Of a stretch of DNA of 64,000 nt, positions 6,623 through 40,580 are shown piece after piece; the stretch's first letter is position 1, and every line of letters begins with the position of its first letter. Origin of the DNA: Ypsolopha sequella (taxonomy: Eukaryota; Arthropoda; Insecta; Lepidoptera; Ypsolophidae); the NCBI GenBank assembly GCA_934047225.1, contig OW204000.1, positions 10,062,001-10,126,000 on the forward strand, read 5' to 3'. The notes under the pieces were generated by a model. The model had not been told where the DNA came from. It did no database searches and worked only from the letters and a program-made list of their open reading frames with translations. Both the position numbers and the translations under genes were made by a program.

Positions 6623-6628
6623 GGTAGG
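6623..6628. repeat. Target-site duplication, left (GGTAGG)
   Basis: GGTAGG directly precedes the AGTAGTGTG terminus and recurs directly after the other terminus at 20208-20213. The uninterrupted copy at 52170-52175 has it once. A 6-bp duplication is the known Polinton value. Confidence 0.93.
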
Positions 6629-6974
6629 AGTAGTGTGTTTTCGCCGGTTCTGGACCACTGAGTAATTAGTTAATGAGATGTGTCAACATTTGCCAAAATA
6701 AAACTCAATTGACTATTAACTTAATACTGGTTTATGTGCATGCATGTAATTTATTAATGGGATCATTATTTATCTGTTGATAATGAAATAATTAACACGA
6801 AAGTTTTGTTATAGTCATTCCAAAGTTATTATTCACTTAATACTTTATGTGCATGTCATTGCTATTTGCAGTTTTTTTTTCTACAGCTGACACTTTTCTA
6901 ATGTTGTCTCATTCTAAACATGAAATTTTATAAAATGTGGATTTACCTCCCATTCCTAAAAAAATGTTAGTACC

Positions 6975-7606
6975 TACTGAATATCAAGTTTTCTTCAAAT
7001 TCTCCATACAAACGCCAAAGTTATTATTTTATTATATGTTTAAAATGAATCAATTATTGTATGGTTTGTTTTGAAGATATCTCCAGATGAATGTTACTAC
7101 ACGATATAAAAATTGATTTACTTTGGTCCAGTGACTGACGTCAATCATATATGCAGAAGTAACGTCTAAAACAATGCTCAGGTCACGTTTAGGTTTACTA
7201 AATTAGTATAGACCATTGATGTAATAAAATTGTTCTGAGGTATAGACATAGTAAAACTGATAGTAGTTAGATTTCAGGTACAATTATAAAATATTAATTC
7301 GTACTGAATATCAAGTTTTCTTCAAATTCTCCATACAAACGCCAAAGTTATTATTTTATTATATGTTTAAAATGATTCAATTATTGTATGGTTTGTTTTG
7401 AAGATATCTCCAGATGAATGTTACTACACGATATAAAAGTTGATTTACTTTGGTCCAGTGACTGACGTCAATCATATATGTAGAAGTAACGTCTAAAACA
7501 ATGCTCAGGTCACGTTTAGGTTTACTAAATTAGTATAGACCATTGATGTCATAAAATTGTTCTGAGGTATAGACATAGTAAAACTGATAGTAGTTAGATT
7601 TCAGGT
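6975..7606 (+). repeat. Subterminal direct duplication, left arm
   Basis: TACTGAATATCAAGTTTTC and about 300 following bases occur at 6975 and again at 7302 (period 327). A second duplicated block (CGAAAGTTTTGTTATAGT through TTTATGTGCATGTCATT) lies outside it at about 6790-6865 and 7675-7742. Subterminal repeats may be protein-binding sites; this is an inference. Confidence 0.8.
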
Positions 7607-7795
7607 AAAATGATTTTTGGAAAGATGAAAACATAATTGTTTCAGATCATTCTGTTGATGATGAAATGAGTAACGCGAAAGTTTTGTTATAGTAATTCCA
7701 AAGTTATTATTCACTTAGTAATGGTTTATGTGCATGTCATTTATTATTAGGATACTTGTTTATCTATATCATTTATTAACGATGTAAATTGTCTT

Positions 7796-7831
7796 TATAA
7801 GCAATAAAGATCTCTGACGACTTATCAGTCT
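7796..7831 (+). promoter_or_regulatory. TATA box and initiator, left-arm gene
   Basis: TATAA at 7796-7800 lies 31 bases upstream of the A of TCAGT (7825-7829), the classic arthropod spacing of TATA box and initiator. The first ATG downstream (7935) is the start of the spliced frame, which supports the call. Confidence 0.65.
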
Positions 7832-7934
7832 CGTTCTAGTTTTCGAACTTACTTTGTTATTTATAAAAGAAGACTTATTTTATTATTATTATAGTGGTGT
7901 TTTTGATCCCTGTCAGTCTATAAAAAACGAACAA

Positions 7935-8583
7935 ATGGAGGTAAGAATAACGAATCTTTATTTATTTTTTTACGTTTTATTCATAACCAAGTTTGATTCC
8001 TCAGGTTCTTTATTTTCTTTTCTTCATATTTTTGTGTTTTTAGTTGTTTTATATATTTTTTTTGTTTTGTTTTCAGAATTCAAGGGAATTGTATATCAAT
8101 GACGTGCAAGAAGATGAAGTGTTTGATCCAGTTAGACAGAACCCATATTATTATGCTCAGGACCCTTTAGCCAACTTTGAGGAGGAAATGGCGTCTAGAG
8201 CTAAGAAAAGGAAGATTAATCAAAAGCCTGATACTAATTTCGATGCGTTTTTCGATAAAAAGGTGCCAATAAAGATCAAGAGAGGAATCAGTTCGAATGT
8301 TGGGAAACCTAAAGAAAATGGTATACAATACATAGCATTATCAGAAGAAGACAATGCTACGCATCTTATAAAAATTGAGTTATTTGATTTACATAAGATC
8401 CGTGATATTCCACATGAAGAACAATGGAAACATGCTGAAGTTCGAGTAAAATATGTTAGTAAAACCCCTGACGATGAAATTAAACGAATGAGTGAAAGTA
8501 TTGTATACAAAATTACGAAGTTTATAGCTGATAACTCTAAATGTAAGAGCTATTTTATTGATTTTGGAAAGATGAAAAAATAA
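7935..8583 (+). CDS. Unknown 170-residue element protein, left copy
   Basis: Two exons, 7935-7940 and 8077-8583. The first exon holds only the ATG and one Glu codon and ends at GTAAGAATA; the 136-bp intron ends in a T-rich tract and TTTTCAG, in phase 0. The start is the first ATG after the predicted transcription start, in an ACAAATGG context. The protein has an acidic N-terminal part, a basic nuclear-localisation-like cluster (RAKKRK) near residue 50, and a Lys-rich end (KMKK). AATAAA at 8664-8669 lies about 80 bases past the stop. Its frame is open and unchanged in both arms, unlike the polymerase. I do not recognise the family; no catalytic motif is visible. Confidence 0.6.
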
Positions 8584-8676
8584 TCGTTTCACTTCCTTAC
8601 TTTTGTAAAATACGTTACAACTAATATTTTTATATTGCTCACATATAAGGTTTATTAAGTCAAAATAAAACAACTT

Positions 8677-9105
8677 GGATTTATCTTAGAAGTTGATCTT
8701 GAATATCCCATTGAAAAACATGATCTACACTCTGATTTACCCTTCTGTCCTGAGCTCATAAAAACTTCAAATAATGCAGGTGAAAGATTGATCACAAGTC
8801 TTAATCTAAAATCAAAGTACGTGATTCACTACGTTAACTTAATACAATGTCTAGAACATGGATTAATTTTAACAAAAGTTCATCGTGTGTAGCAATTCAA
8901 CCAGAAACCTTGGTTAAGAGAATATATAGACTTAAACACTAAATATCGTTCCCAGGCTACTTCTGCTTTTGATAAAGACTTCTATAAATTAATGAATAAT
9001 TCTGTTTACGGTAAGACGATGGAAAATGTTGAAAGGAAGGTTAATGTCAAACTTGTAACACATTGGGAGAACAACGGTAAAAAAAATGGGTGCGTCAAGT
9101 CTGTC
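8677..9105 (+). pseudogene. Family B DNA polymerase fragment (motifs A, B), left
   Basis: In one frame it carries a motif A-like DLEYP at 8695-8709 and a motif B-like NNSVYG at 8995-9012, the arrangement of protein-primed family B polymerases of Polintons. An in-frame TAG at 8890-8892 breaks it. The exonuclease domain upstream and the YxDTDS-type motif C downstream are absent: sequence past about 9105 becomes unrelated and then repeats the 3' flank of the 170-residue gene (9297-9375 matches 8606-8675). It cannot make an active enzyme. Confidence 0.8.
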
Positions 9106-9471
9106 AAGCAGACCGGGATATCAAAACCGAACTGTGTTTTCGAAAAATTTTATTGCGGTCCAATTAAAAAAAAACAAAACATGTCTATAACAAACCAATT
9201 TATCTCGCATTTTGTATTCTAGACTTATCCAAAACACTCATGTACCAATTTCACTACGACTACATGAAAATAAAATACGGTCAAAATGTAAAACTAATGT
9301 AAAATACGTTACAACTAATATTTTTTTATATTACTCACATATAAGGTTTATTAAGTCAAAATAAAACAACTCATATCACATAACATAATCTTTTATTTAT
9401 AATATCATCAAAGCAATCTGTTATAATAGTAGTTTAACATAAAATCGTTTAATATGGTATTATCATGATCG

Positions 9472-12107
9472 AACAGATTAATAAAATAGTCTAAAGAATA
9501 CCTTTCCATTTTAAAATAAATAAATAACAAAGCATATTCCCCCACATACTGAAGTTAAAATACTTTGAAGAATCTTAGTGCTATGTATCCAATTATCCAT
9601 TGCTTATAATTTCTATTTAAAAATGATAAATGACTTCCTGTTGGTTTCCTTCAAAAACTGTCGAAATATTCTCCAACTTTATTTATAAAATGAATCAATT
9701 TAATAGTTCACATGCTTTTTATTGTATAATTTTATTTATTAAGATTGTATATTTGACATATCTGGTTATAACTATTTATAACACAACGAATATAACATTG
9801 CACTGTAATATACGAGTACGAATACAACAATTATTTTTTCACAACAAAAAAAGAAATTATAGCTTTTGAGAATGTTTTATAGACTTGTCAATTCAAGCGA
9901 TACTCTCAGGAGAGAGATATCACAAATTAAATACAATAAAAAAAATATCGTGTAATCTACCCAAACAACTCCAAGCATTTTGAAAATAACTGAACATTAT
10001 AAACAGATTAATAAAATAGTCTAAAGAATACTTTTCCATTTTAAAATAAATAAATAACAAAGCATATTCCCCCACATACTGAAGTTAAAATACTTTGAAG
10101 AATCTTAGTGCTATGTATCCAATTATCCATTGCTTATAATTTCTATTTAAAAATGATAAATGACTTCCTGTTGGTTTCCTTCAAAAACTGTCGAAATATT
10201 CTCCAACTTTATTTATAAAATGAATCAATTTAATAGTTCACATGCTTTTTATTGTATAATTTTATTTATTAAGATTGTATATTTGACATATCTGGTTATA
10301 ACTATTTATAACACAACGAATATAACATTGCACTGTAATATACGAGTACGAATACAACAATTATTTTTTCACAACAAAAAAAGAAATTATAGCTTTTGAG
10401 AATGTTTTATAGACTTGTCAATTCAAGCGATACTCTCAGGAGAGAGATATCACAAATTAAATACAATAAAAAAAATATCGTGTAATCTACCCAAACAACT
10501 CCAAGCATTTTGAAAATAACTGAACATTATAAACAGATTAATAAAATAGTCTAAAGAATACTTTTCCATTTTAAAATAAATAAATAACAAAGCATATTCC
10601 CCCACATACTGAAGTTAAAATACTTTGAAGAATCTTAGTGCTATGTATCCAATTATCCATTGCTTATAATTTCTATTTAAAAATGATAAATGACTTCCTG
10701 TTGGTTTCCTTCAAAAACTGTCGAAATATTCTCCAACTTTATTTATAAAATAAATCAATTTAATAGTTCACATGCTTTTTATTGTATAATTTTATTTATT
10801 AAGATTGTATATTTGACATATCTGGTTATAACTATTTATAACACAACGAATATAACATTGCACTGTAATATACGAGTACGAATACAACAATTATTTTTTC
10901 ACAACAAAAAAAGAAATTATAGCTTTTGAGAATGTTTTATAGACTTGTCAATTCAAGCGATACTCTCAGGAGAGAGATATCACAAATTAAATACAATAAA
11001 AAAAATATCGTGTAATCTACCCAAACAACTCCAAGCATTTTGAAAATAACTGAACATTATAAACAGATTAATAAAATAGTCTAAAGAATACTTTTCCATT
11101 TTAAAATAAATAAATAACAAAGCATATTTCCCACATACTGAAGTTAAAATACTTTGAAGAATCTTAGTGCTATGTATCCATTGCTTACAATTTCTATTTA
11201 AAAATGATAAATGACTTCCTGTTGGTTTCCTTCAAAAACTGTCGAAATATTCTCCAACTTTATTTATAAAATGAATCAATTTAATAGTTCACATGCTTTT
11301 TATTGTATAATTTTATTTATTAAGATTGTATATTTGACATATCTGGTTATAACTATTTATAACACAACGAATATAACATTGCACTGTAATATACGAGTAC
11401 GAATACAACAATTATTTTTTCACAACAAAAAAAGAAATTATAGCTTTTGAGAATGTTTTATAGACTTGTCAATTCAAGCGATACTCTCAGGAGAGAGATA
11501 TCACAAATTAGATACAATAAAAAAAAAATCGTGTAATCTACCCAAACAACTCCAAGCATTTTGAAAATAACTGAACATTATAAACAGATTAATAAAATAG
11601 TCTAAAGAATACCTTTCCATTTTAAAATAAATAAATAACAAAGCATATTCCCCCACATACTGAAGTTAAAATACTTTGAAGAATCTTAGTGCTATGTATC
11701 CAATTATCCATTGCTTATAATTTCTATTTAAAAATGATAAATGACTTCCTGTTGGTTTCCTTCAAAAACTGTCGAAATATTCTCCAACTTTATTTATAAA
11801 ATGAATCAATTTAATAGTTCACATGCTTTTTATTGTATAATTTTATTTATTAAGATTGTATATTTGACATATCTGGTTATAACTATTTATAACACAACGA
11901 ATATAACATTGCACTGTAATATACGAGTACGAATACAACAATTATTTTTTCACAACAAAAAAAGAAATTATAGCTTTTGAGAATGTTTTATAGACTTGTC
12001 AATTCAAGCGATACTCTCAGGAGAGAGATATCACAAATTAAATACAATAAAAAAAATATCGTGTAATCTACCCAAACAACTCCAAGCATTTTAAAAATAA
12101 CTGAACA
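9472..12107 (+). repeat. 530-bp tandem array, five copies
   Basis: Units start with AACAGATTAATAAAATAG at 9472, 10002, 10532, 11062 and 11583. Unit four is 521 bp, from losing a CCAATTATC-type block and single bases; the others are 530 bp. The units differ at only a few positions. Each contains a short open frame of 79 codons that I do not regard as coding. The array lies between the two polymerase fragments, where motif C should be. Confidence 0.95.
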
Positions 12108-12362
12108 TAACACATGAAAAAAGTTATAATTCAAAAAAATATTAAACATATAAATAAATCACTTAACTATACACGAGAACTTCACTAAATAATACATTTT
12201 TATTCATGATATATAATTATGTTACTTAAGCATCATTATAAATTTATCCTAAAGTGCCCCCATAAAGTGTCCGTAGAATTCGATATCAAATACCTTTTAG
12301 AATCATCAGATGACAATGTATTTTTTTTTTATCTTGCAAATAACAAATTTGGTATCACTTAA

Positions 12363-13076
12363 GCAAATAAAAAGGTTCCCGGTTTATTTAAAGATGAACA
12401 TGAAGGTGAAATTTTATTGGAGTTTGTAGGATTGCAATCGAAATTGTACTGCATAAAAACTGAAAGTCAAGAAATAAAAAAAGCAAAAGGTACAAAAAAG
12501 TGTATCACGAAAAACCTAGAGTTTTCAGATTATGATAACGTCTTATCACGTGGCAAGGAACTCAGAAAGACAAACGTACATTTCAAGTCAATAAAACATC
12601 AGTTATTTACACAGGAGCTTAACAAGGTGGTATTATCACGCAGGGACAACAAAACATTTATTTTAAAAGATAATATATCAACACTATCTTGGGGCCATCA
12701 TTTACTATTTTGGGCAGTACTTTTCAAAATGGATGCAGGGTTTTTGAGAGATGTGATGGTATCAAAACATACATACATTCACAGAAATGGTACTAAAATT
12801 ACAACAGGACTATATGCTGAATCAGATTTTAAAATTTTTGTTAAAGTAAAGAAGAACACAGATGTATTATTTCTATCATTTGTTGAATGGCAGATGATAT
12901 CCGATGATTTGTATAAATATTATGTTGGTGAAATTTATAATCTTAAGTCGTTTACATACTTATTTTGTGAAAAACGATGTTCTTTAACTTTTATAAATTT
13001 TATTTTCATAGCCCTATATGAATATCTACTATTATGTATAACAAAAAAGAGTTCAGAAACTCCAAAACGATTATGA
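12363..13076 (+). pseudogene. Family B DNA polymerase C-terminal fragment, left
   Basis: The frame opens after a TAA near 12360 without a plausible ATG, so it is a 5'-truncated piece. The first ~100 residues resemble the C-terminal thumb region of Polinton-type polymerases (a segment with GLFKDEH, then FVGL, KLY and KKAKG). After about 12665 the frame continues with sequence I cannot assign, possibly a read-through into a neighbouring gene remnant. The copy at 15342-16055 is the same. Confidence 0.7.
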
Positions 13077-13703
13077 AGTTGTTTTAAACTTTATAAATAA
13101 AATAACAAAATATTTGAAAACAAATTGTATCTCAAATAACAATATATTAAAAAGTATACTAGCATTTAATGTAGACTCAAACTCTATTGTAGAATTAGAA
13201 CTTATAACTAACTGTTTAGATTACTTTTACATTTTTACTATTACATAAGTGAAAAATAATTTTTGATACCTATTAATAGACTGATTATTATAAAATTGTT
13301 ATATTTTTTATTTATTTCTCCTGCATCTAACATTTTTTTTGTCTTCGATGTACTATTAGCTGCAGGTGTGAACTTGATCAGCACATATCATGTTTTCATT
13401 TATGCTAAACGATAACAATCTTGATGTTCTCACATAGTCAGCATTTTTGATATTAAACAAGTCTCAGCCTGTGTGAAACCTACACCACACAGTTTTGCAA
13501 TGTAAGTTGATTTTTTGTTTCGAGGCCAGCAAACATATACAAGAAAGTGGTGAAAATATTAACTAAAGTGTACTTAAGTGCAAAGTGTAAAGTGTAAGTA
13601 AGAGTTATGAATAAATAAAACATTTGATTGATAAAAATTATATCTTTTTATTTATTATATGAACTAATTAATTCTAAACCTGATAAAACGATTATATAAA
13701 AAT
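13077..13703. other. AT-rich spacer in the left arm
   Basis: No gene seen. TTTATT at about 13647 would be an AATAAA signal for the minus-strand frame ending at 13704. The same spacer is mirrored at 14715-15341. Confidence 0.5.
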
Positions 13704-14207
13704 CTACTTGAAAATAGAAAATTTATCAATATGGTTGTCATAATACCATTTCTTAATACAACATACATTTCGAAGAGCACATTCATTTTCATGAAAAATA
13801 CAATTCATTTTTTTGTTAGTGTTTACATAGTTTTTAAACAATTTAAAAAAACTTGGACATCCCTTATCACCCATATTTATAACAGTACAGCTGTTACAGA
13901 TTTTATTTAACCATTTAATTTTTTCTAAACCTTTAACAATAACGATTTTATTTTCTAAAATAGGCACTATTACTATTTTAAAATCCTTATAATCCATATA
14001 TCCTTGTGACCAAATGATACCCCTGTTTCTTTCTATCCAGGCAACTTGCTTCTTTTCTCCTTTTGTTAAACATTGGAAAGGAAACGGAGGTTTTATCAAA
14101 AATACTTGGTTTCGGTCATTAGTTATCAATGCGAACTCCTTTAAAATAAACTCATTTTGATAATCTTTAAATCCTTGAATATCAACAAAAATGCAATCAG
14201 TGCTCAT
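13704..14207 (-). CDS. Unknown 167-residue Cys-rich element protein
   Basis: The ATG at 14207 opens a 167-residue frame ending at TAG 13704. Its N-terminal two thirds lie in the unique centre of the palindrome and its last third lies in the left arm. Visible features are an N-terminal VDIQGF segment, a CNSC pair, and a His/Cys-rich tail (FHENEC, CC), suggesting metal binding. VDIQGF could be the first acidic motif of an exonuclease-like fold, but that is weak. The 3' third is repeated in the right arm with an extra T in a T-run, so only this copy is full length. It overlaps the upstream frame by 11 bases. Confidence 0.5.
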   Translation of the reverse strand: MSTDCIFVDIQGFKDYQNEFILKEFALITNDRNQVFLIKPPFPFQCLTKGEKKQVAWIERNRGIIWSQGYMDYKDFKIVIVPILENKIVIVKGLEKIKWLNKICNSCTVINMGDKGCPSFFKLFKNYVNTNKKMNCIFHENECALRNVCCIKKWYYDNHIDKFSIFK

Positions 14208-14547
14208 GATATATTTTAATGATGTTGCTTAGTGGTTTGTGTTCAAATATATAGTCGTTCAGTATAAGACAAAAGGCAGCTGTTTGGTTTGGTAATTCAC
14301 GATCACTCTCTATCTCAACACGTACATCAACCGATCCTGACTTCAGATACTCATTTTGACGAGAGCAATCAATAACAAACAGCGGAGCTATATCCTTAAA
14401 TTCTTCCAACCTTAACAACGGTTCAGGTCAACGACCATAGTACGACTGTTGGAATTTAACAAATTGATCATATAATTAGCTGTTGTGCACTATTCAAAAC
14501 GCTGTCTCCATCTTCGTACACAACGTGTTGAAAATTTAGAAGTTTTC
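13871..14547. other. Unique centre (loop) of the palindrome, 677 bp
   Basis: This is the only part of the element present once. On the minus strand it contains the 5' part of the 167-residue frame and the end of another frame. The arm/centre junctions share GTGATAAGGG (13861-13870 inverted, and 14548-14557); the sequence beyond each differs. Confidence 0.9.
14197..14418 (-). pseudogene. C-terminal remnant of an element protein
   Basis: The last 73 codons of a frame ending 11 bases inside the 167-residue gene. There is no ATG at the start; upstream in frame a TGA appears and similarity-like sequence continues past it, so it is the 3' end of a longer, broken gene. It contains a DCSRQNE segment that I associate with uncharacterised insect virus- or transposon-related proteins. 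I cannot name the family. Confidence 0.45.
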
Positions 14548-14551
14548 GTGA

Positions 14552-14687
14552 TAAGGGATGTCCAAGTTTTTTTTAATTGTTTAAAAACTATGTAAACACT
14601 AACAAAAAAATGAATTGTATTTTTCATGAAAATGAATGTGCTCTTCGAAATGTATGTTGTATTAAGAAATGGTATTATGACAACCAT
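14552..14687 (-). pseudogene. Mirrored 3' fragment of the 167-residue gene
   Basis: This is the inverted copy of 13704-13866, so the matching sense reads along the + strand here. The T-run after CCAAG has one more T than in the other copy, shifting the frame, and the 5' part is missing. It marks where arm duplication cut into the gene. Confidence 0.7.
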
Positions 14688-15341
14688 ATTGATAAATTTT
14701 CTATTTTCAAGTAGATTTTTATATAATTGTTTTATCAGGTTTAGAATTAATTAGTTCATATAATAAATAAAAAGATATAATTTTTATCAATCAAATGTTT
14801 TATTTATTCATAACTCTTACTTACACTTTACACTTTGCACTTAAGTACACTTTAGTTAATATTTTCACCACTTTCTTGTATATGTTTGCTGGCCTCGAAA
14901 CAAAAAATCAACTTACATTGCAAAACTGTGTGGTGTAGGTTTCACACAGGCTGAGACTTGTTTAATATCAAAAATGCTGACTATGTGAGAACATCAAGAT
15001 TGTTATCGTTTAGCATAAATGAAAACATGATATGTGCTGATCAAGTTCACACCTGCAGCTAATAGTACATCGAAGACAAAAAAAATGTTAGATGCAGGAG
15101 AAATAAATAAAAAATATAACAATTTTATAATAATCAGTCTATTAATAGGTATCAAAAATTATTTTTCACTTATGTAATAGTAAAAATGTGAAAGTAATCT
15201 AAACAGTTAGTTATAAGTTCTAATTCTACAATAGAGTTTGAGTCTACATTAAATGCTAGTATACTTTTTAATATATTGTTATTTGAGATACAATTTGTTT
15301 TCAAATATTTTGTTATTTTATTTATAAAGTTTAAAACAACT

Positions 15342-16055
15342 TCATAATCGTTTTGGAGTTTCTGAACTCTTTTTTGTTATACATAATAGTAGATATTCAT
15401 ATAGGGCTATGAAAATAAAATTTATAAAAGTTAAAGAACATCGTTTTTCACAAAATAAGTATGTAAACGACTTAAGATTATAAATTTCACCAACATAATA
15501 TTTATACAAATCATCGGATATCATCTGCCATTCAACAAACGATAGAAATAATACATCTGTGTTCTTCTTTACTTTAACAAAAATTTTAAAATCTGATTCA
15601 GCATATAGTCCTGTTGTAATTTTAGTACCATTTCTGTGAATGTATGTATGTTTTGATACCATCACATCTCTCAAAAACCCTGCATCCATTTTGAAAAGTA
15701 CTGCCCAAAATAGTAAATGATGGCCCCAAGATAGTGTTGATATATTATCTTTTAAAATAAATGTTTTGTTGTCCCTGCGTGATAATACCACCTTGTTAAG
15801 CTCCTGTGTAAATAACTGATGTTTTATTGACTTGAAATGTACGTTTGTCTTTCTGAGTTCCTTGCCACGTGATAAGACGTTATCATAATCTGAAAACTCT
15901 AGGTTTTTCGTGATACACTTTTTTGTACCTTTTGCTTTTTTTATTTCTTGACTTTCAGTTTTTATGCAGTACAATTTCGATTGCAATCCTACAAACTCCA
16001 ATAAAATTTCACCTTCATGTTCATCTTTAAATAAACCGGGAACCTTTTTATTTGC
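15342..16055 (-). pseudogene. Family B DNA polymerase C-terminal fragment, right
   Basis: Mirror of 12363-13076, with the same open frame and the same missing 5' part. No change that would restore or further break the frame was seen. Confidence 0.7.
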
Positions 16056-16310
16056 TTAAGTGATACCAAATTTGTTATTTGCAAGATAAAAAAAAATACA
16101 TTGTCATCTGATGATTCTAAAAGGTATTTGATATCGAATTCTACGGACACTTTATGGGGGCACTTTAGGATAAATTTATAATGATGCTTAAGTAACATAA
16201 TTATATATCATGAATAAAAATGTATTATTTAGTGAAGTTCTCGTGTATAGTTAAGTGATTTATTTATATGTTTAATATTTTTTTGAATTATAACTTTTTT
16301 CATGTGTTAT

Positions 16311-17364
16311 GTTCAGTTATTTTTAAAATGCTTGGAGTTGTTTGGGTAGATTACACGATATTTTTTTTATTGTATTTAATTTGTGATATCTCTCTCCTGA
16401 GAGTATCGCTTGAATTGACAAGTCTATAAAACATTCTCAAAAGCTATAATTTCTTTTTTTGTTGTGAAAAAATAATTGTTGTATTCGTACTCGTATATTA
16501 CAGTGCAATGTTATATTCGTTGTGTTATAAATAGTTATAACCAGATATGTCAAATATACAATCTTAATAAATAAAATTATACAATAAAAAGCATGTGAAC
16601 TATTAAATTGATTCATTTTATAAATAAAGATGGAGAATATTTCGACAGTTTTGGAAGGAAACCAACAGGAAGTCATTTATCATTTTTAAATAGAAATTGT
16701 AAGCAATGGATAATTGGATACATAGCACTAAGATTCTTCAAAGTATTTTAACTTCAGTATGTGGGGGAATATGCTTTGTTATTTATTTATTTTAAAATGG
16801 AAAGGTATTCTTTAGACTATTTTATTAATCTGTTTATAATGTTCAGTTATTTTCAAAATGCTTGGAGTTGTTTGGGTAGATTACACGATTTTTTTTTTAT
16901 TGTATCTAATTTGTGATATCTCTCTCCTGAGAGTATCGCTTGAATTGACAAGTCTATAAAACATTCTCAAAAGCTATAATTTCTTTTTTTGTTGTGAAAA
17001 AATAATTGTTGTATTCGTACTCGTATATTACAGTGCAATGTTATATTCGTTGTGTTATAAATAGTTATAACCAGATATGTCAAATATACAATCTTAATAA
17101 ATAAAATTATACAATAAAAAGCATGTGAACTATTAAATTGATTCATTTTATAAATAAAGTTGGAGAATATTTCGACAGTTTTTGAAGGAAACCAACAGGA
17201 AGTCATTTATCATTTTTAAATAGAAATTATAAGCAATGGATAATTGGATACATAGCACTAAGATTCTTCAAAGTATTTTAACTTCAGTATGTGGGGGAAT
17301 ATGCTTTGTTATTTATTTATTTTAAAATGGAAAGGTATTCTTTAGACTATTTTATTAATCTGTT
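16311..17364 (-). repeat. 530-bp tandem array, two copies
   Basis: Inverted equivalents of the left units, at 16835-17364 and 16311-16834. The loss or gain of three units relative to the left arm accounts for the whole 1.58-kb arm-length difference. Confidence 0.95.
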
Positions 17365-17730
17365 CGATCATGATAATACCATATTAAACGATTTTATGTT
17401 AAACTACTATTATAACAGATTGCTTTGATGATATTATAAATAAAAGATTATGTTATGTGATATGAGTTGTTTTATTTTGACTTAATAAACCTTATATGTG
17501 AGTAATATAAAAAAATATTAGTTGTAACGTATTTTACATTAGTTTTACATTTTGACCGTATTTTATTTTCATGTAGTCGTAGTGAAATTGGTACATGAGT
17601 GTTTTGGATAAGTCTAGAATACAAAATGCGAGATAAATTGGTTTGTTATAGACATGTTTTGTTTTTTTTTAATTGGACCGCAATAAAATTTTTCGAAAAC
17701 ACAGTTCGGTTTTGATATCCCGGTCTGCTT

Positions 17731-18159
17731 GACAGACTTGACGCACCCATTTTTTTTACCGTTGTTCTCCCAATGTGTTACAAGTTTGACATTAACCTTC
17801 CTTTCAACATTTTCCATCGTCTTACCGTAAACAGAATTATTCATTAATTTATAGAAGTCTTTATCAAAAGCAGAAGTAGCCTGGGAACGATATTTAGTGT
17901 TTAAGTCTATATATTCTCTTAACCAAGGTTTCTGGTTGAATTGCTACACACGATGAACTTTTGTTAAAATTAATCCATGTTCTAGACATTGTATTAAGTT
18001 AACGTAGTGAATCACGTACTTTGATTTTAGATTAAGACTTGTGATCAATCTTTCACCTGCATTATTTGAAGTTTTTATGAGCTCAGGACAGAAGGGTAAA
18101 TCAGAGTGTAGATCATGTTTTTCAATGGGATATTCAAGATCAACTTCTAAGATAAATCC
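17731..18159 (-). pseudogene. Family B DNA polymerase fragment (motifs A, B), right
   Basis: Mirror of 8677-9105, with the same in-frame stop and the same breakpoints. Because the stop is shared, the damage happened before the arms were duplicated or was copied between them. Confidence 0.8.
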
Positions 18160-18252
18160 AAGTTGTTTTATTTTGACTTAATAAACCTTATATGTGAGCA
18201 ATATAAAAATATTAGTTGTAACGTATTTTACAAAAGTAAGGAAGTGAAACGA

Positions 18253-18901
18253 TTATTTTTTCATCTTTCCAAAATCAATAAAATAGCTCTTACATTTAGA
18301 GTTATCAGCTATAAACTTCGTAATTTTGTATACAATACTTTCACTCATTCGTTTAATTTCATCGTCAGGGGTTTTACTAACATATTTTACTCGAACTTCA
18401 GCATGTTTCCATTGTTCTTCATGTGGAATATCACGGATCTTATGTAAATCAAATAACTCAATTTTTATAAGATGCGTAGCATTGTCTTCTTCTGATAATG
18501 CTATGTATTGTATACCATTTTCTTTAGGTTTCCCAACATTCGAACTGATTCCTCTCTTGATCTTTATTGGCACCTTTTTATCGAAAAACGCATCGAAATT
18601 AGTATCAGGCTTTTGATTAATCTTCCTTTTCTTAGCTCTAGACGCCATTTCCTCCTCAAAGTTGGCTAAAGGGTCCTGAGCATAATAATATGGGTTCTGT
18701 CTAACTGGATCAAACACTTCATCTTCTTGCACGTCATTGATATACAATTCCCTTGAATTCTGAAAACAAAACAAAAAAAATATATAAAACAACTAAAAAC
18801 ACAAAAATATGAAGAAAAGAAAATAAAGAACCTGAGGAATCAAACTTGGTTATGAATAAAACGTAAAAAAATAAATAAAGATTCGTTATTCTTACCTCCA
18901 T
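18253..18901 (-). CDS. Unknown 170-residue element protein, right copy
   Basis: Mirror of 7935-8583: exon 1 at 18896-18901, intron 18760-18895, exon 2 at 18253-18759. Splice sites, start context and the whole translated product match the left copy. Two convergent copies pointing to the element centre could give complementary transcripts if termination fails; this is an inference. Confidence 0.6.
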
Positions 18902-19004
18902 TTGTTCGTTTTTTATAGACTGACAGGGATCAAAAACACCACTATAATAATAATAAAATAAGTCTTCTTTTATAAATAACAAAGTAAGTTCGAAAACTAG
19001 AACG

Positions 19005-19040
19005 AGACTGATAAGTCGTCAGAGATCTTTATTGCTTATA
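19005..19040 (-). promoter_or_regulatory. TATA box and initiator, right-arm gene
   Basis: Mirror of 7796-7831: TTATA (minus-strand TATAA) at 19036-19040 and the initiator with +1 at about 19009, same spacing. Confidence 0.65.
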
Positions 19041-19229
19041 AAGACAATTTACATCGTTAATAAATGATATAGATAAACAAGTATCCTAATAATAAATGAC
19101 ATGCACATAAACCATTACTAAGTGAATAATAACTTTGGAATTACTATAACAAAACTTTCGCGTTACTCATTTCATCATCAACAGAATGATCTGAAACAAT
19201 TATGTTTTCATCTTTCCAAAAATCATTTT

Positions 19230-19861
19230 ACCTGAAATCTAACTACTATCAGTTTTACTATGTCTATACCTCAGAACAATTTTATGACATCAATGGTCTA
19301 TACTAATTTAGTAAACCTAAACGTGACCTGAGCATTGTTTTAGACGTTACTTCTACATATATGATTGACGTCAGTCACTGGACCAAAGTAAATCAACTTT
19401 TATATCGTGTAGTAACATTCATCTGGAGATATCTTCAAAACAAACCATACAATAATTGAATCATTTTAAACATATAATAAAATAATAACTTTGGCGTTTG
19501 TATGGAGAATTTGAAGAAAACTTGATATTCAGTACGAATTAATATTTTATAATTGTACCTGAAATCTAACTACTATCAGTTTTACTATGTCTATACCTCA
19601 GAACAATTTTATTACATCAATGGTCTATACTAATTTAGTAAACCTAAACGTGACCTGAGCATTGTTTTAGACGTTACTTCTGCATATATGATTGACGTCA
19701 GTCACTGGACCAAAGTAAATCAATTTTTATATCGTGTAGTAACATTCATCTGGAGATATCTTCAAAACAAACCATACAATAATTGATTCATTTTAAACAT
19801 ATAATAAAATAATAACTTTGGCGTTTGTATGGAGAATTTGAAGAAAACTTGATATTCAGTA
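19230..19861 (-). repeat. Subterminal direct duplication, right arm
   Basis: Mirror of 6975-7606, again with a 327-base period. Confidence 0.8.
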
Positions 19862-20207
19862 GGTACTAACATTTTTTTAGGAATGGGAGGTAAATCCACA
19901 TTTTATAAAATTTCATGTTTAGAATGAGACAACATTAGAAAAGTGTCAGCTGTAGAAAAAAAAACTGCAAATAGCAATGACATGCACATAAAGTATTAAG
20001 TGAATAATAACTTTGGAATGACTATAACAAAACTTTCGTGTTAATTATTTCATTATCAACAGATAAATAATGATCCCATTAATAAATTACATGCATGCAC
20101 ATAAACCAGTATTAAGTTAATAGTCAATTGAGTTTTATTTTGGCAAATGTTGACACATCTCATTAACTAATTACTCAGTGGTCCAGAACCGGCGAAAACA
20201 CACTACT

Positions 20208-20213
20208 GGTAGG
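20208..20213. repeat. Target-site duplication, right (GGTAGG)
   Basis: GGTAGG directly after the CACACTACT terminus; pairs with 6623-6628. Confidence 0.93.
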
Positions 20214-23821: not shown

Positions 23822-26800
23822 GTATGTGCAAACCGTGTTGTTATAGTGATATTCGCATCCCCGTGAAGCATGGTATTCCATGGGGAGAAAAGGCGGGGGG
23901 CGTAAGTGCGTCCATGCTTTAGATTTGAGTTCAGTGACCTCGGTGTAAAATGCATTCAATCAAAACAAATCATCACATTCAGTGCATGCATAGAACAAAC
24001 AAATTGAATAATACATAAGAATGTGTTTTGTTTGGGAATTATTGTGACATTCAACTACCAATCTAAGTATATAAAATTCTTCTTGTTTGTGTGACAGCTA
24101 GGTACTCTAGGTAGTCAATCAATGACGCATTGGCTCTATAAATGTGTTTTGTACTAAAATCATGTAACATTGATGGCAAATTAAAAAACTTATTCAATTG
24201 TGATGAATATAACTATGATTTCAACAGCAGAACAGTTTTTAAACAACATGAACTAAGCGTATGCAAAATAGAAATATACTTACTCATATTTACATGGAAA
24301 GAAGTGTTTACTTGCAATATTCTTATTACTCTGTGTTCATTTATTCTGTTTGTGGTACAATTGCTTATTATTATTACACAACTAGTATGATTAAAACATA
24401 CAGCTCTGTGTTATTTAGGTTATTTACGAGTGGCTCAGAAGCCACATTTGCTTGTGTGTGTACGTTTAGCTTGTGACGTCTCATCGGTGTAAGTACCTGA
24501 TATCGTCGTAAACACGGATGTGTACAAACTACATCGATATACGATAAACTACAAAACATTCGTGTGGCAAACGCCCAATATACCGACAGACAGGTTTACA
24601 AGTTGTAATTTCTGCACTAGGTGTACTTACCTACTAGACTTGTTGTTTACCAAGACTGCATTATAATTACAATGTCCTACAGATAACTTTGCGGGAGCCA
24701 AAATGTGTTTTTTTAGGAGAACTATCGCGGTGTACTATTTTACACGGGCTGAATTACTAAAATAAGAAGACTGGAATTGCAAATCAAAACTAAAAAAGTT
24801 CCAAATATTTCATTATGTGTAGAGATTTGCGGGAAAAAAAACGATAATTATTTTAGCTTGTAAAACAGCTTTTTATGAATTTTAAGTAATTTTAGAACAT
24901 TTATTTTTATTACGTTTTTTATGAAAACTTGAAACTCTATTTTGTTGACTAACCGATAGTTACGTCATTTGCTTGACTTGCCCGTTTGTGACGGTTAACG
25001 TTTGAACGGTTATGGTTATCGTCTATTTATTTGATGAAGTTATATACATAGTTTAGAAGAGAAAAACAAATAATAAATACTACTTTTGAAATAAATTTAT
25101 TTATCGATCGATATCAAATGTAAAGTAAAAATAATCAAATATCTTCCCTGGTACTAATTTAGTGTATATTGAGTGTAAAAAGTTAACTGGATCACCAAGT
25201 AACTTTCGCAAAAATCACAACTTTATTTCTGTTTTTTTTTTCTAAATAAATGTTTAGATATTGTTGTTGTTTGGATTAAATACAAATAAAAACCGGCCAA
25301 GTACCTACCTACGTGTTGTGCCACGCGCAGTGTAGAGTTCCGCAGTTTTATAAGTTGTCGACTATAACTTGTAAAGCCTACTTAGTTGTAATAGTTTTCC
25401 TTTTAACTTCGTTATATATATAACACTACTGCCAATCCGGATACTGAAAAAAAAAAAAAACAATTCCCATACAAAAAATTTATAACGTCATTACTGCCCC
25501 GCCCATCCTCCTAGTGCTCCTATATTTGGCCACAAAATATTCCCCGTGAGTGGTTCTACTGAAGTACTGAGTTCGGTTTAGTGGACTATGTACAAAGCAA
25601 ATATTGATAGAAAACCACACAAATCGATGTACAGGATAGCCGTTTGGTACAAAATTCAAAAAGTTTATTTTGCAAAGTAGGTATATATAATACACGTTTC
25701 ACAAGTCAAATTTTAATCTTATAAAAATATATGTAATAAAATAATAAATGTACATGAACTACTTAGATTAAATGTTTATTTAATTTATGTAGCAATGTAC
25801 ACGGGTAGTTCTTAAAAATATTCCCATGGGCGCCGCCCGCGCCCAAACGGCTATCCTGTACATCGATTTGTGCGGTTTTCTATCAATATTTGCTTTGTAC
25901 ACAGCTAGTCCACTAAACCGAACTCAGTACTTCAGTAGAACCATTCACGGGGAATATTTTGTGGCCAAATATAGGAACAATAGGAGGAATGAGTAAAGAT
26001 TTGAAGAATCTATGACAAACGTCATCATGGATGAATTGGGGAATTTAGAAATTTTAGCGAATCCTTTTCGTAATCTTGACGTACCTCAAATATTTCTTGA
26101 TGTTTTGACTCCATTTCTATAGTATATTGACGAAAAATTCATTTCACATGAAAAAAAAATGGATACATGAACTCGGCACAACAGAAGTATGACCCAAATT
26201 CGTCAGTGAATACAAAATTTTCGACGACAGTGGAATCTGATGTATTAACGATACTGAATCACCTCCTAAATTACTTTCCATTTAAATTGAAAGACCTTAT
26301 ATGTGAGATAAATTGTATTTTCATTTGTTTTTCAGACCCAGATTGGGCGTCTTACAATATTGGAATATTCATCTGCATGCGATGTGCTAGCGTCCATCGT
26401 AGTATGGGTGCACACATCAGCAAAGTCAAACACCTAAAACTGGATCGATGGGAAGATTCTCAAGTCCAGAGAATGAAAGAAGTTGGTAACACAACTGCAA
26501 AGGCCAAGTACGAGTATAGAGTTCCTCCATGCTACAGAAGACCAGTGAAAACCGATCCTCAGTATGTTATTTATATAGTATTACATAATTATAATATTAT
26601 TAAAACTCGCGTGAGCTGACATACTAAATTATTATTACATACGGCTTGAACACTCACGTGTGATTGTTGTTGACTATATGCCAACCGTTTCTAAGAACGA
26701 CACTCGCCTTGATAATGCCGAAATTGTATCGGTGAAACGATTGGCATATAGTCAACAACAATCACACGTGAGTGTTTTGTAATTAATATGTAATTAATAT

Positions 26801-39893: not shown

Positions 39894-40001
39894 ATATAGT
39901 TTTTTTTTCTTTTTCGTACGAAATGTAACGCCGTTAAACGAATAGATGTACATAGTTTAGGTTACTCGTATAATAATTGAATCTAAAATTTTAATCGTTA
40001 A

Positions 40002-40361
40002 GAGGCCTGCGGAGCAATCCTAGTTCATACAAACGAAATACCAAAACCATTTGTAAATGATAGATATTCTTAAAGCAATGTGTATTTATTCCGATTGCAT
40101 AACAGAATATCTAGGTTCCCAAATATATATTGAATAAGAACACTGATTAAAACATGAAATTTGAGAAAAATAAGCTTTCTATGGAAACTTTTAATTGCTT
40201 ATATGTCATCTTTAAATCGGTGTCTTTTCAAAATATATATTTGGGAATCTAGTTATTTTGTAATCCAATCTGAATAAACACACAGTATTCTAAGAATATC
40301 TACGTTTTCCAAATTGTTTTGGTATTTCGTTTGTATGAACTAGGGTTGCTCCACCGGCCTC
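40002..40361. repeat. TTAA-flanked MITE, GAGGCCTGCGG family
   Basis: Long inverted arms (TAGTTCATACAAACGAAATA on the left) with TTAA at 39998-40001 and 40362-40365. Confidence 0.8.
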
Positions 40362-40580
40362 TTAAGCAGCTCTATTAGCAACTCAAAATGATTTTTTGTG
40401 CTCAGAACGTGTACTAGGCAATATAAATAATTTAGTAAATCCCATATTAAAATAACAGTATAGATAATCGATCAAAACAAACAACTATTTCACAATTTAC
40501 TTGATAACACAATTAACCCAACTAGTTTCGCCTTATGGCGTATGACCATGCTAAATTAGCAACTCGATGTGTGTCGGTAC

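Follow-up and report, generated by a model that had tools for sequence, protein, structure and literature searches.

The 64,000-nucleotide stretch of Ypsolopha sequella DNA analysed here (hereafter the window) carries a Polinton-type element of 13.6 kb at positions 6629-20207 which is a palindrome, and it belongs to a family whose members inserted whole, as palindromes, with several different fold-back junctions. Seven centre structures (A, B, B2, C, D, E and F) were distinguished among the family members examined, so that the single element described in an earlier note on this DNA is no one-off. It is likely, in our assessment, that the family consists of non-autonomous Polinton derivatives, which arose by fold-back (snap-back) switching in protein-primed replication and were mobilised in trans. 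The data were those of one assembly (866.8 Mb, 151 contigs).

The limits of the element were determined by reading its ends, and those of its arms and centre by alignment. The left arm starts with the terminus AGTAGT and runs on the plus strand to the centre (6629-13870; 7,242 bp). It is followed by the unique centre, or loop, of 677 bp (13871-14547) and by the right arm, an inverted copy of the left arm on the minus strand that ends in ACTACT (14548-20207; 5,660 bp). The target-site duplication GGTAGG, exactly 6 bp per side, lies immediately outside (6623-6628 and 20208-20213). Both the termini, (AGT)2//(ACT)2 with the AG...CT ends of Polintons/Mavericks, and the length of the duplication are those of this group, and the presence of one end type at both ends with a unique loop between is the arrangement of a mirror-end molecule. 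In a global alignment, 7 mismatches, one 1-nt indel and one gap of 1,581 bp were found across the 5,660-bp right arm. The gap corresponded to three units of a 530-bp array that are present in the left arm only, and the outer 2,979 bp of the arms showed zero differences, an identity that is not possible by chance. The coordinates and sizes given in the earlier note (arms of 7.24 and 5.66 kb, a 677-bp centre and a 6-bp duplication) were borne out by the alignment and the end reading.

The open reading frame (ORF) at 13704-14207 on the minus strand runs uninterrupted over the border between left arm and centre, and two other copies, C38 and C67, match the window as far as 14550 and diverge after it. 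The right border (~14548) was therefore taken as the new junction. At this point (14548-14550, junction A) the trinucleotide GTG, a 3-nt microhomology, is common to the onward sequence of C38/C67 and to the inverted arm.

A centre probe (13500-14600) gave 115 matches in the genome, with 40 of 214 first-look candidates scored. The full window centre together with its junction (class A) was present at 11 loci including the window, at one of them from probe base 20 on, and both halves of the ten non-window loci were retrieved and read. At 10 of the 11 loci both ends were perfect and were flanked by ten distinct 6-bp duplications (GGTAGG, CCTGTT, AACAGA, GAGGTG, GTTAAA, ACCAGG, AAGCGG, TATAGC, TACATC and TCCAGG). 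The eleventh locus, C8b (C8:29.79 Mb), contains a 200-N gap and has no left end in the retrieved piece; its right flank is the same as that of C8a (C8:29.15 Mb), and it was counted as a duplicate of the C8a locus, due either to local duplication or to an assembly problem. When the class-A flanks were compared over 2 kb on each side, 29 scattered matches were obtained, none of which aligned two copies in register on both sides. Copy C6 sits in a dispersed repeat, an unoccupied relative of which, 91-95% alike and with the six target bases different, was found in the flank of C11.

Because one centre junction is common to ten insertions with ten separate 6-bp duplications, the palindrome moves as a palindrome: it inserted whole, repeatedly. 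The earlier note had read the element as the integrated form of a snap-back or mirror-end molecule and had proposed to look for several loci sharing the same centre, and the centre junction was indeed found at the window and ten other loci. Mirror-end integration is thus strongly supported by ten insertions, ten duplications and one centre junction, and the snap-back origin would fit the junctions. The alternative offered in that note, in which an ordinary asymmetric Polinton inserted first and conversion of its terminal repeats then moved inward, fails as an account of the origin of the palindrome, since conversions occurring independently would not have ended at the same point in ten insertions with different duplications. 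The near-identical arms of most copies indicate that some homogenisation may act, and we regard inward conversion as a very improbable source of the palindromes.

Further copies were sought by their ends. The exact 17-nt end occurs 68 times in the genome (36 forward, 32 reverse; a reversed-pattern control gave 0 and 0), a census of exact matches that leaves ends with a mismatch uncounted. These ends pair inward to form 32 pairs, 7.6-25.9 kb apart, with four ends unpaired (C8 at 29.78 Mb, C14 at 1.27 Mb, C16, and C25 at 6.64 Mb). By the parts examined, 27 of the 32 pairs are palindromic, two of them probably alleles; the other five, C4:25745065-25752652, C6:16596029-16612596, C10:26482067-26507978, C11:10663557-10689103 and C14:1237415-1251663, were not read inside, and none of the 32 was demonstrated to be asymmetric. 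Besides the ten class-A pairs, of which both halves were read, the palindromic pairs comprise four of class B (C38, C67, C2, and C14 at 11.7 Mb) and one of class B2 with its centre and both ends read (C29 at 2.1 Mb, duplication CACTAC). Five more were assigned to class B2 by probe-match coordinates only (C1, C8, C10, C23 at 1.2 Mb, and C28), and a seventh B2 locus, on C16, has one unpaired end. Class C is represented by C23 at 7.4 Mb, where the centre was read, and, by coordinates, by C3, C4 and C30, whose right flanks are different. The remaining centres are each known from a single locus: D in C24 (a centre slice), E in C25, and F in C17 at 11.3 Mb. Outside class A, 6-bp duplications were found at C38 and C67 (the same TATATA site), C2, C14 at 11.7 Mb, C25, C17b, C23 and the B2 copy on C29, and also at the pairs C11-2 and C10-2, whose interiors were unread. 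No such duplication was found where an end is missing (C8b, C16, and the stretch read of C14 at 1.24 Mb). C38 and C67 carry the same TATATA insertion on two contigs, with lengths of 15.5 and 12.4 kb, and are probably alleles of one insertion, the length difference coming perhaps from the 530-bp array. From their coordinates they had been considered as asymmetric parents, which was rejected because their sequences are palindromes.

Faulty handling of long reads is known to produce palindromes, and an assembly fold-back or false duplication had to be considered for this reason. Such an artefact is scarcely credible here. The flanks differ on the two sides and the 6-bp duplications are exact; the arms in the window have unequal arrays (5 vs 2 units); and C38 and C17b were resolved although their arms differ at the level of percents, in a family with palindromes at many sites.

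The junctions themselves differ from class to class in a way that points to repeated folding (switch points are given in window left-arm positions). In centre A the switch is from ~14548-14550 to 13870, at the shared GTG. Centre B reaches ~264 bp beyond 14550 and then turns to 13521; B2 continues from B through 171 nt of inverted arm and then jumps a second time, from 13351 to 14374. Centre C contains an extra inverted 49-nt piece from 12911-12959, centre D switches from 14083 to 14152, centre E has the right half of B in the opposite orientation followed by a new fold-back to 13425, and a few bases are inserted where centre F switches from 12244 to 13794. Since B2 and E both contain the B junction, they descend from a palindrome, and the fold-back recurs in the family, two centres carrying the junction of a third. 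Among the copies read the reach past 14550 does not exceed ~264 bp; B may therefore be the founding palindrome, which would fit this limit. Short shared sequence and small extra pieces at junctions are what template switching leaves.

The position of centres A, B, C and D within ~1.3 kb could suggest that the parent had a hot spot at which the palindrome of each site formed independently. This is contradicted for class A, which has one junction in ten insertions and in which left/right differences are common to copies, such as those at 13690 and 13844 in both the window and C11, and we give independent formation almost no credence; D and F, each seen once, are the centres to which it may apply. 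The main rival to our reading is that the palindromes formed in the chromosome, when an integrated copy underwent fold-back break repair or fork-template switching, and that the role of the Polinton machinery was limited to mobilising them. Chromosomal fold-back repair is described in the portions of the literature available to us, and junctions A, F and C have the general look of template switching. Each such event, however, would have to retain both functional ends at one locus and be remobilised, and the occurrence of seven centre structures in a single family suggests that the process is linked to replication of the element itself. A chromosomal origin is considered unlikely.

The history of the arms was followed separately for their outer part (terminus to array) and their inner part. 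Class-A outer arms showed 0 to 9 within-copy differences per 1.8-2.85 kb: 0/2842 in the window, 3/2842 in C11, 4/2393 in C18, 0/2525 in C21a, 0/1824 in C13, 2/2849 in C6, 3/2850 in C12, 3/1980 in C29, 2/1986 in C21b and 9/2835 in C8a. The outer arms of C13, C29 and C21b differ from the window at 79/1808, 169/1971 and 168/1971 positions respectively, some of which reflect alignment around indels, and large indels in these three copies are common to both arms of each. For C13, columns more than 10 from any gap gave 0 differences within the copy vs 22 to the nearest other copy. Outside class A, C2 and C25 differ within the copy at 2/2300 and 0/2298 positions and from each other at 46/2280. In the ten class-A copies, 247 outer-arm sites were of the concordant type vs 24 discordant, many of them beside indels; a recount of sites more than 10 columns from a gap (844 columns) gave 80 vs 7, the same direction with far smaller numbers. 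A tree of the 20 outer arms grouped them by lineage and not by side, with 7 of its 14 inner branches unresolved; the exceptions were the left arms of C29 and C21b, which pair together, and the right arm of C18, which groups with C21a.

In several lineages, then, changes in the outer arms affected both sides jointly, which was mostly not so in the inner arms. A conversion-like or copying process of some kind has kept the outer arms of these lineages alike, which resembles what is expected for the terminal repeats of protein-primed replicons and is no proof of hairpin copying. C29 and C21b combine a class-A centre with outer arms that lack 6774-6904 on both sides, and the B2 and C ends that were read are missing the same piece. 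The simplest explanation for C29 and C21b is that lineages exchanged sequence and that the change was then copied to the other arm. The right arm of C13 contains a tandem duplication of ~2.7 kb of the inner arm; for this reason a value of '7.2 units' for its right array was rejected as a unit count.

We propose that a single strand displaced during protein-primed replication of a Polinton would fold back on itself at short homologies, and that its extension to its own end would place the same terminus, with the origin and the integrase end, at both ends of the product. The strand of such a palindrome could self-anneal as a long hairpin, which would be copied from a single duplex end, along one arm, through the loop and back along the other. 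Stem repair or overwriting could bring the outer arms to the same sequence, and new centres would arise when switching occurred again near the loop. Polymerase, integrase and capsid would be supplied in trans by intact Polintons of the same genome. A further suggestion, which we put forward as tentative and possible rather than probable, is that the palindrome is the working genome of a Polinton satellite lineage, a one-ended replicon without need of an asymmetric form, in which the single duplex end of the hairpin would be the only origin, copying or repair of the stem would equalise the outer arms, and the loops would be remodelled by repeated fold-back.

Several points weigh against this proposal. 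The extrachromosomal form, protein-primed synthesis and the hairpin intermediate have all not been observed, and both the mechanism set out above and the helper are inferred. No asymmetric parent was found among the pairs examined. The best candidate for an asymmetric element is the 25.9-kb pair C10:26482067-26507978 (duplication CACAAT), whose far end tracks the left arm for only ~186 nt and which may be asymmetric. The concert of the arms also has its exceptions. Outer-arm sites more than 25 columns from a gap fall to 13 concordant-type vs 5 discordant (530 columns), and the window, C11, C12, C18, C21a and C6 are too alike for testing concert. In the inner arm 13 concordant-type sites stand against 21 discordant ones, and an arm often has its closest match in another copy and not in its partner; five of these discordant sites are common to at least two copies, all at 13690-13871, near the centre, and the last of them is the junction base. 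By segment, the arms of C38 are only 93-97% alike and those of C17b 97-98% (local alignment was used for these copies because global alignment inflated the differences). The right arm of C17b is without ~790 bp, and arm indels of 132 bp and ~170 bp occur in C18 and C8a. Finally, no helper with matching ends was identified.

From the end inward, the arms contain a 327-bp tandem duplication, a 179-aa ORF, a broken family B DNA polymerase (PolB) fragment, the 530-bp array and a second ORF. The two 327-bp units are at 6961-7614 on the plus strand (mirror copy 19222-19875). The 179-aa ORF is at 8044-8583 on the plus strand, with its mirror copy at 18253-18792 on the minus strand, and a search for its relatives gave 10 candidates, none at E <= 0.001. 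In the PolB fragment (8659-9222, plus strand), the part 8893-9222 matches the Pfam family DNA_pol_B_2 with 27.0 bits, close to the cut-off of 25.8 and for a broken fragment only, and 8659-8892 is presumably PolB-like as well. The counterpart in C38 scored 16.6 bits, under the cut-off. Searches of PHROGs with the window ORFs gave weak matches only, the best being a DNA polymerase family for 8893-9222 (E 0.0004), and a PDB sequence search with the PolB fragment returned one match at chance level. The 530-bp array has 5 units in the left arm (9472-12108, plus strand), between the PolB fragment and the second ORF, and 2 units in the right arm (16314-17364, minus strand; approximate limits). The second ORF (12363-13076, plus strand; mirror copy 15342-16055, minus strand) has no Pfam match, and we take its first part to resemble the C-terminal region of PolB.

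The centre of the window element consists of the end of a capsid gene and most of the 167-aa ORF that crosses the left border (13704-14207). This ORF matched no Pfam family; it has 46 relatives in the protein database, 46-59% identical and without a named family, and as a query against viral contigs it gave 19 stretches and no confirmed relative. The capsid fragment (14197-14427, minus strand) is the C-terminal end of a double-jelly-roll protein (PF21738, 63.8 bits, model positions 257-315 of 316), so that the Polinton-type capsid is represented in the window as a fragment only. The 22-nt end pattern had 0 matches in the viral contigs, and an Rfam scan of the window also gave 0 matches. In the ORFs scanned (6 in the window element, from 22 listed of which some lie outside it, and 2 in C38), there was no match to a retroviral-type integrase, a packaging ATPase or a cysteine protease. 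Absence of the ATPase and protease is expected for a derivative without its other half. Since these ORFs include no complete gene for replication or integration, the window element is taken as non-autonomous. Elsewhere in the window, a host exon encoding an ArfGAP domain (26152-26619; PF01412, 93 bits) indicates a eukaryotic gene nearby. A small palindrome with 182-bp arms, 80% alike and separated by 4 nt (39998-40365), is perhaps another small inverted-repeat element.

A search of the genome with the capsid family PF21738 gave 126 matches (278 first-look candidates, 126 scored), 124 of them without a stop in the match, in frames near 410 aa. By these counts, seemingly intact Polinton-type capsid genes are very numerous in the genome, and because 124 of the 126 listed matches are unbroken, helpers acting in trans are plausible. 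Among the 126 listed matches the closest opposite-strand pair is 19-20 kb apart (C1), and no sign was seen of capsid genes inside palindromes. Two loci, C12:2234459-2235791 and C7:4422240-4423572, are 68% alike to the centre probe and adjoin full-length capsid matches (one with a TGA); they are the nearest capsid-bearing relatives of the centre seen.

To our knowledge, protein-primed replication of Polintons has been deduced from their genes and hardly seen at work. Integrated palindromes, some sharing a centre and others differing in it, with precise scars, provide a natural record of replication errors like those of protein-primed viruses and linear plasmids, and make Polinton replication testable from sequence. 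They suggest that a transposing lineage in its own right can develop from defective mirror forms, and also suggest a little-described route by which Polinton-like elements may rearrange and multiply. Annotation by terminal repeats can mistake such mirror elements for Polintons with giant terminal repeats.

The family resembles Polintons/Mavericks in its (AGT)2//(ACT)2 ends, its 6-bp duplication, its PolB and double-jelly-roll capsid fragments and its size range. In the portion of the vertebrate survey available to us, intact Mavericks are 12.7-24.6 kb long, with the same end motif and a 6-bp duplication, and have terminal repeats of 46-1,447 bp with a mean of 402 (PMC8097293). In contrast, the terminal repeats of the window element are 5.7-7.2 kb long, only 677 bp is unique, and the scanned ORFs do not contain a complete gene set of the kind outlined in the accessible part of a review of giant transposons (PMC6431247). 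Terminal repeats of hundreds to thousands of bp are given for cryptophyte Polinton-like viruses in the excerpt consulted (PMC12220804). For fungal linear mitochondrial plasmids of the invertron type, the sections at hand mention terminal inverted repeats, a terminal protein and a suspected snap-back mechanism, and tie integrated copies to long inverted repeats via racquet or panhandle intermediates (PMC1864894). According to the same sections, these plasmids duplicate adjoining host DNA, whereas here the element itself is the palindrome.

Two other systems are close in structure. Drosophila Foldback (FB) transposons likewise have a short loop between long inverted repeats that contain tandem arrays; unlike them, the family has Polinton ends, a 6-bp duplication and capsid and PolB fragments. 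Adenoviruses, which replicate by protein priming, produce snap-back or mirror-end defective genomes in which one end is duplicated as an inverted copy at the other, and the same repetition of one end was found here. Unlike these genomes, the palindrome is integrated and multi-copy, has moved, and has been repeatedly re-folded. Among the titles listed in a search restricted to open-licence papers, no paper on palindromic Polintons was seen. By its ends, duplication and gene fragments the family is a Polinton derivative, and by analogy it would work like a mirror-end defective genome; the mirror form as a transposing and diversifying lineage looks new.

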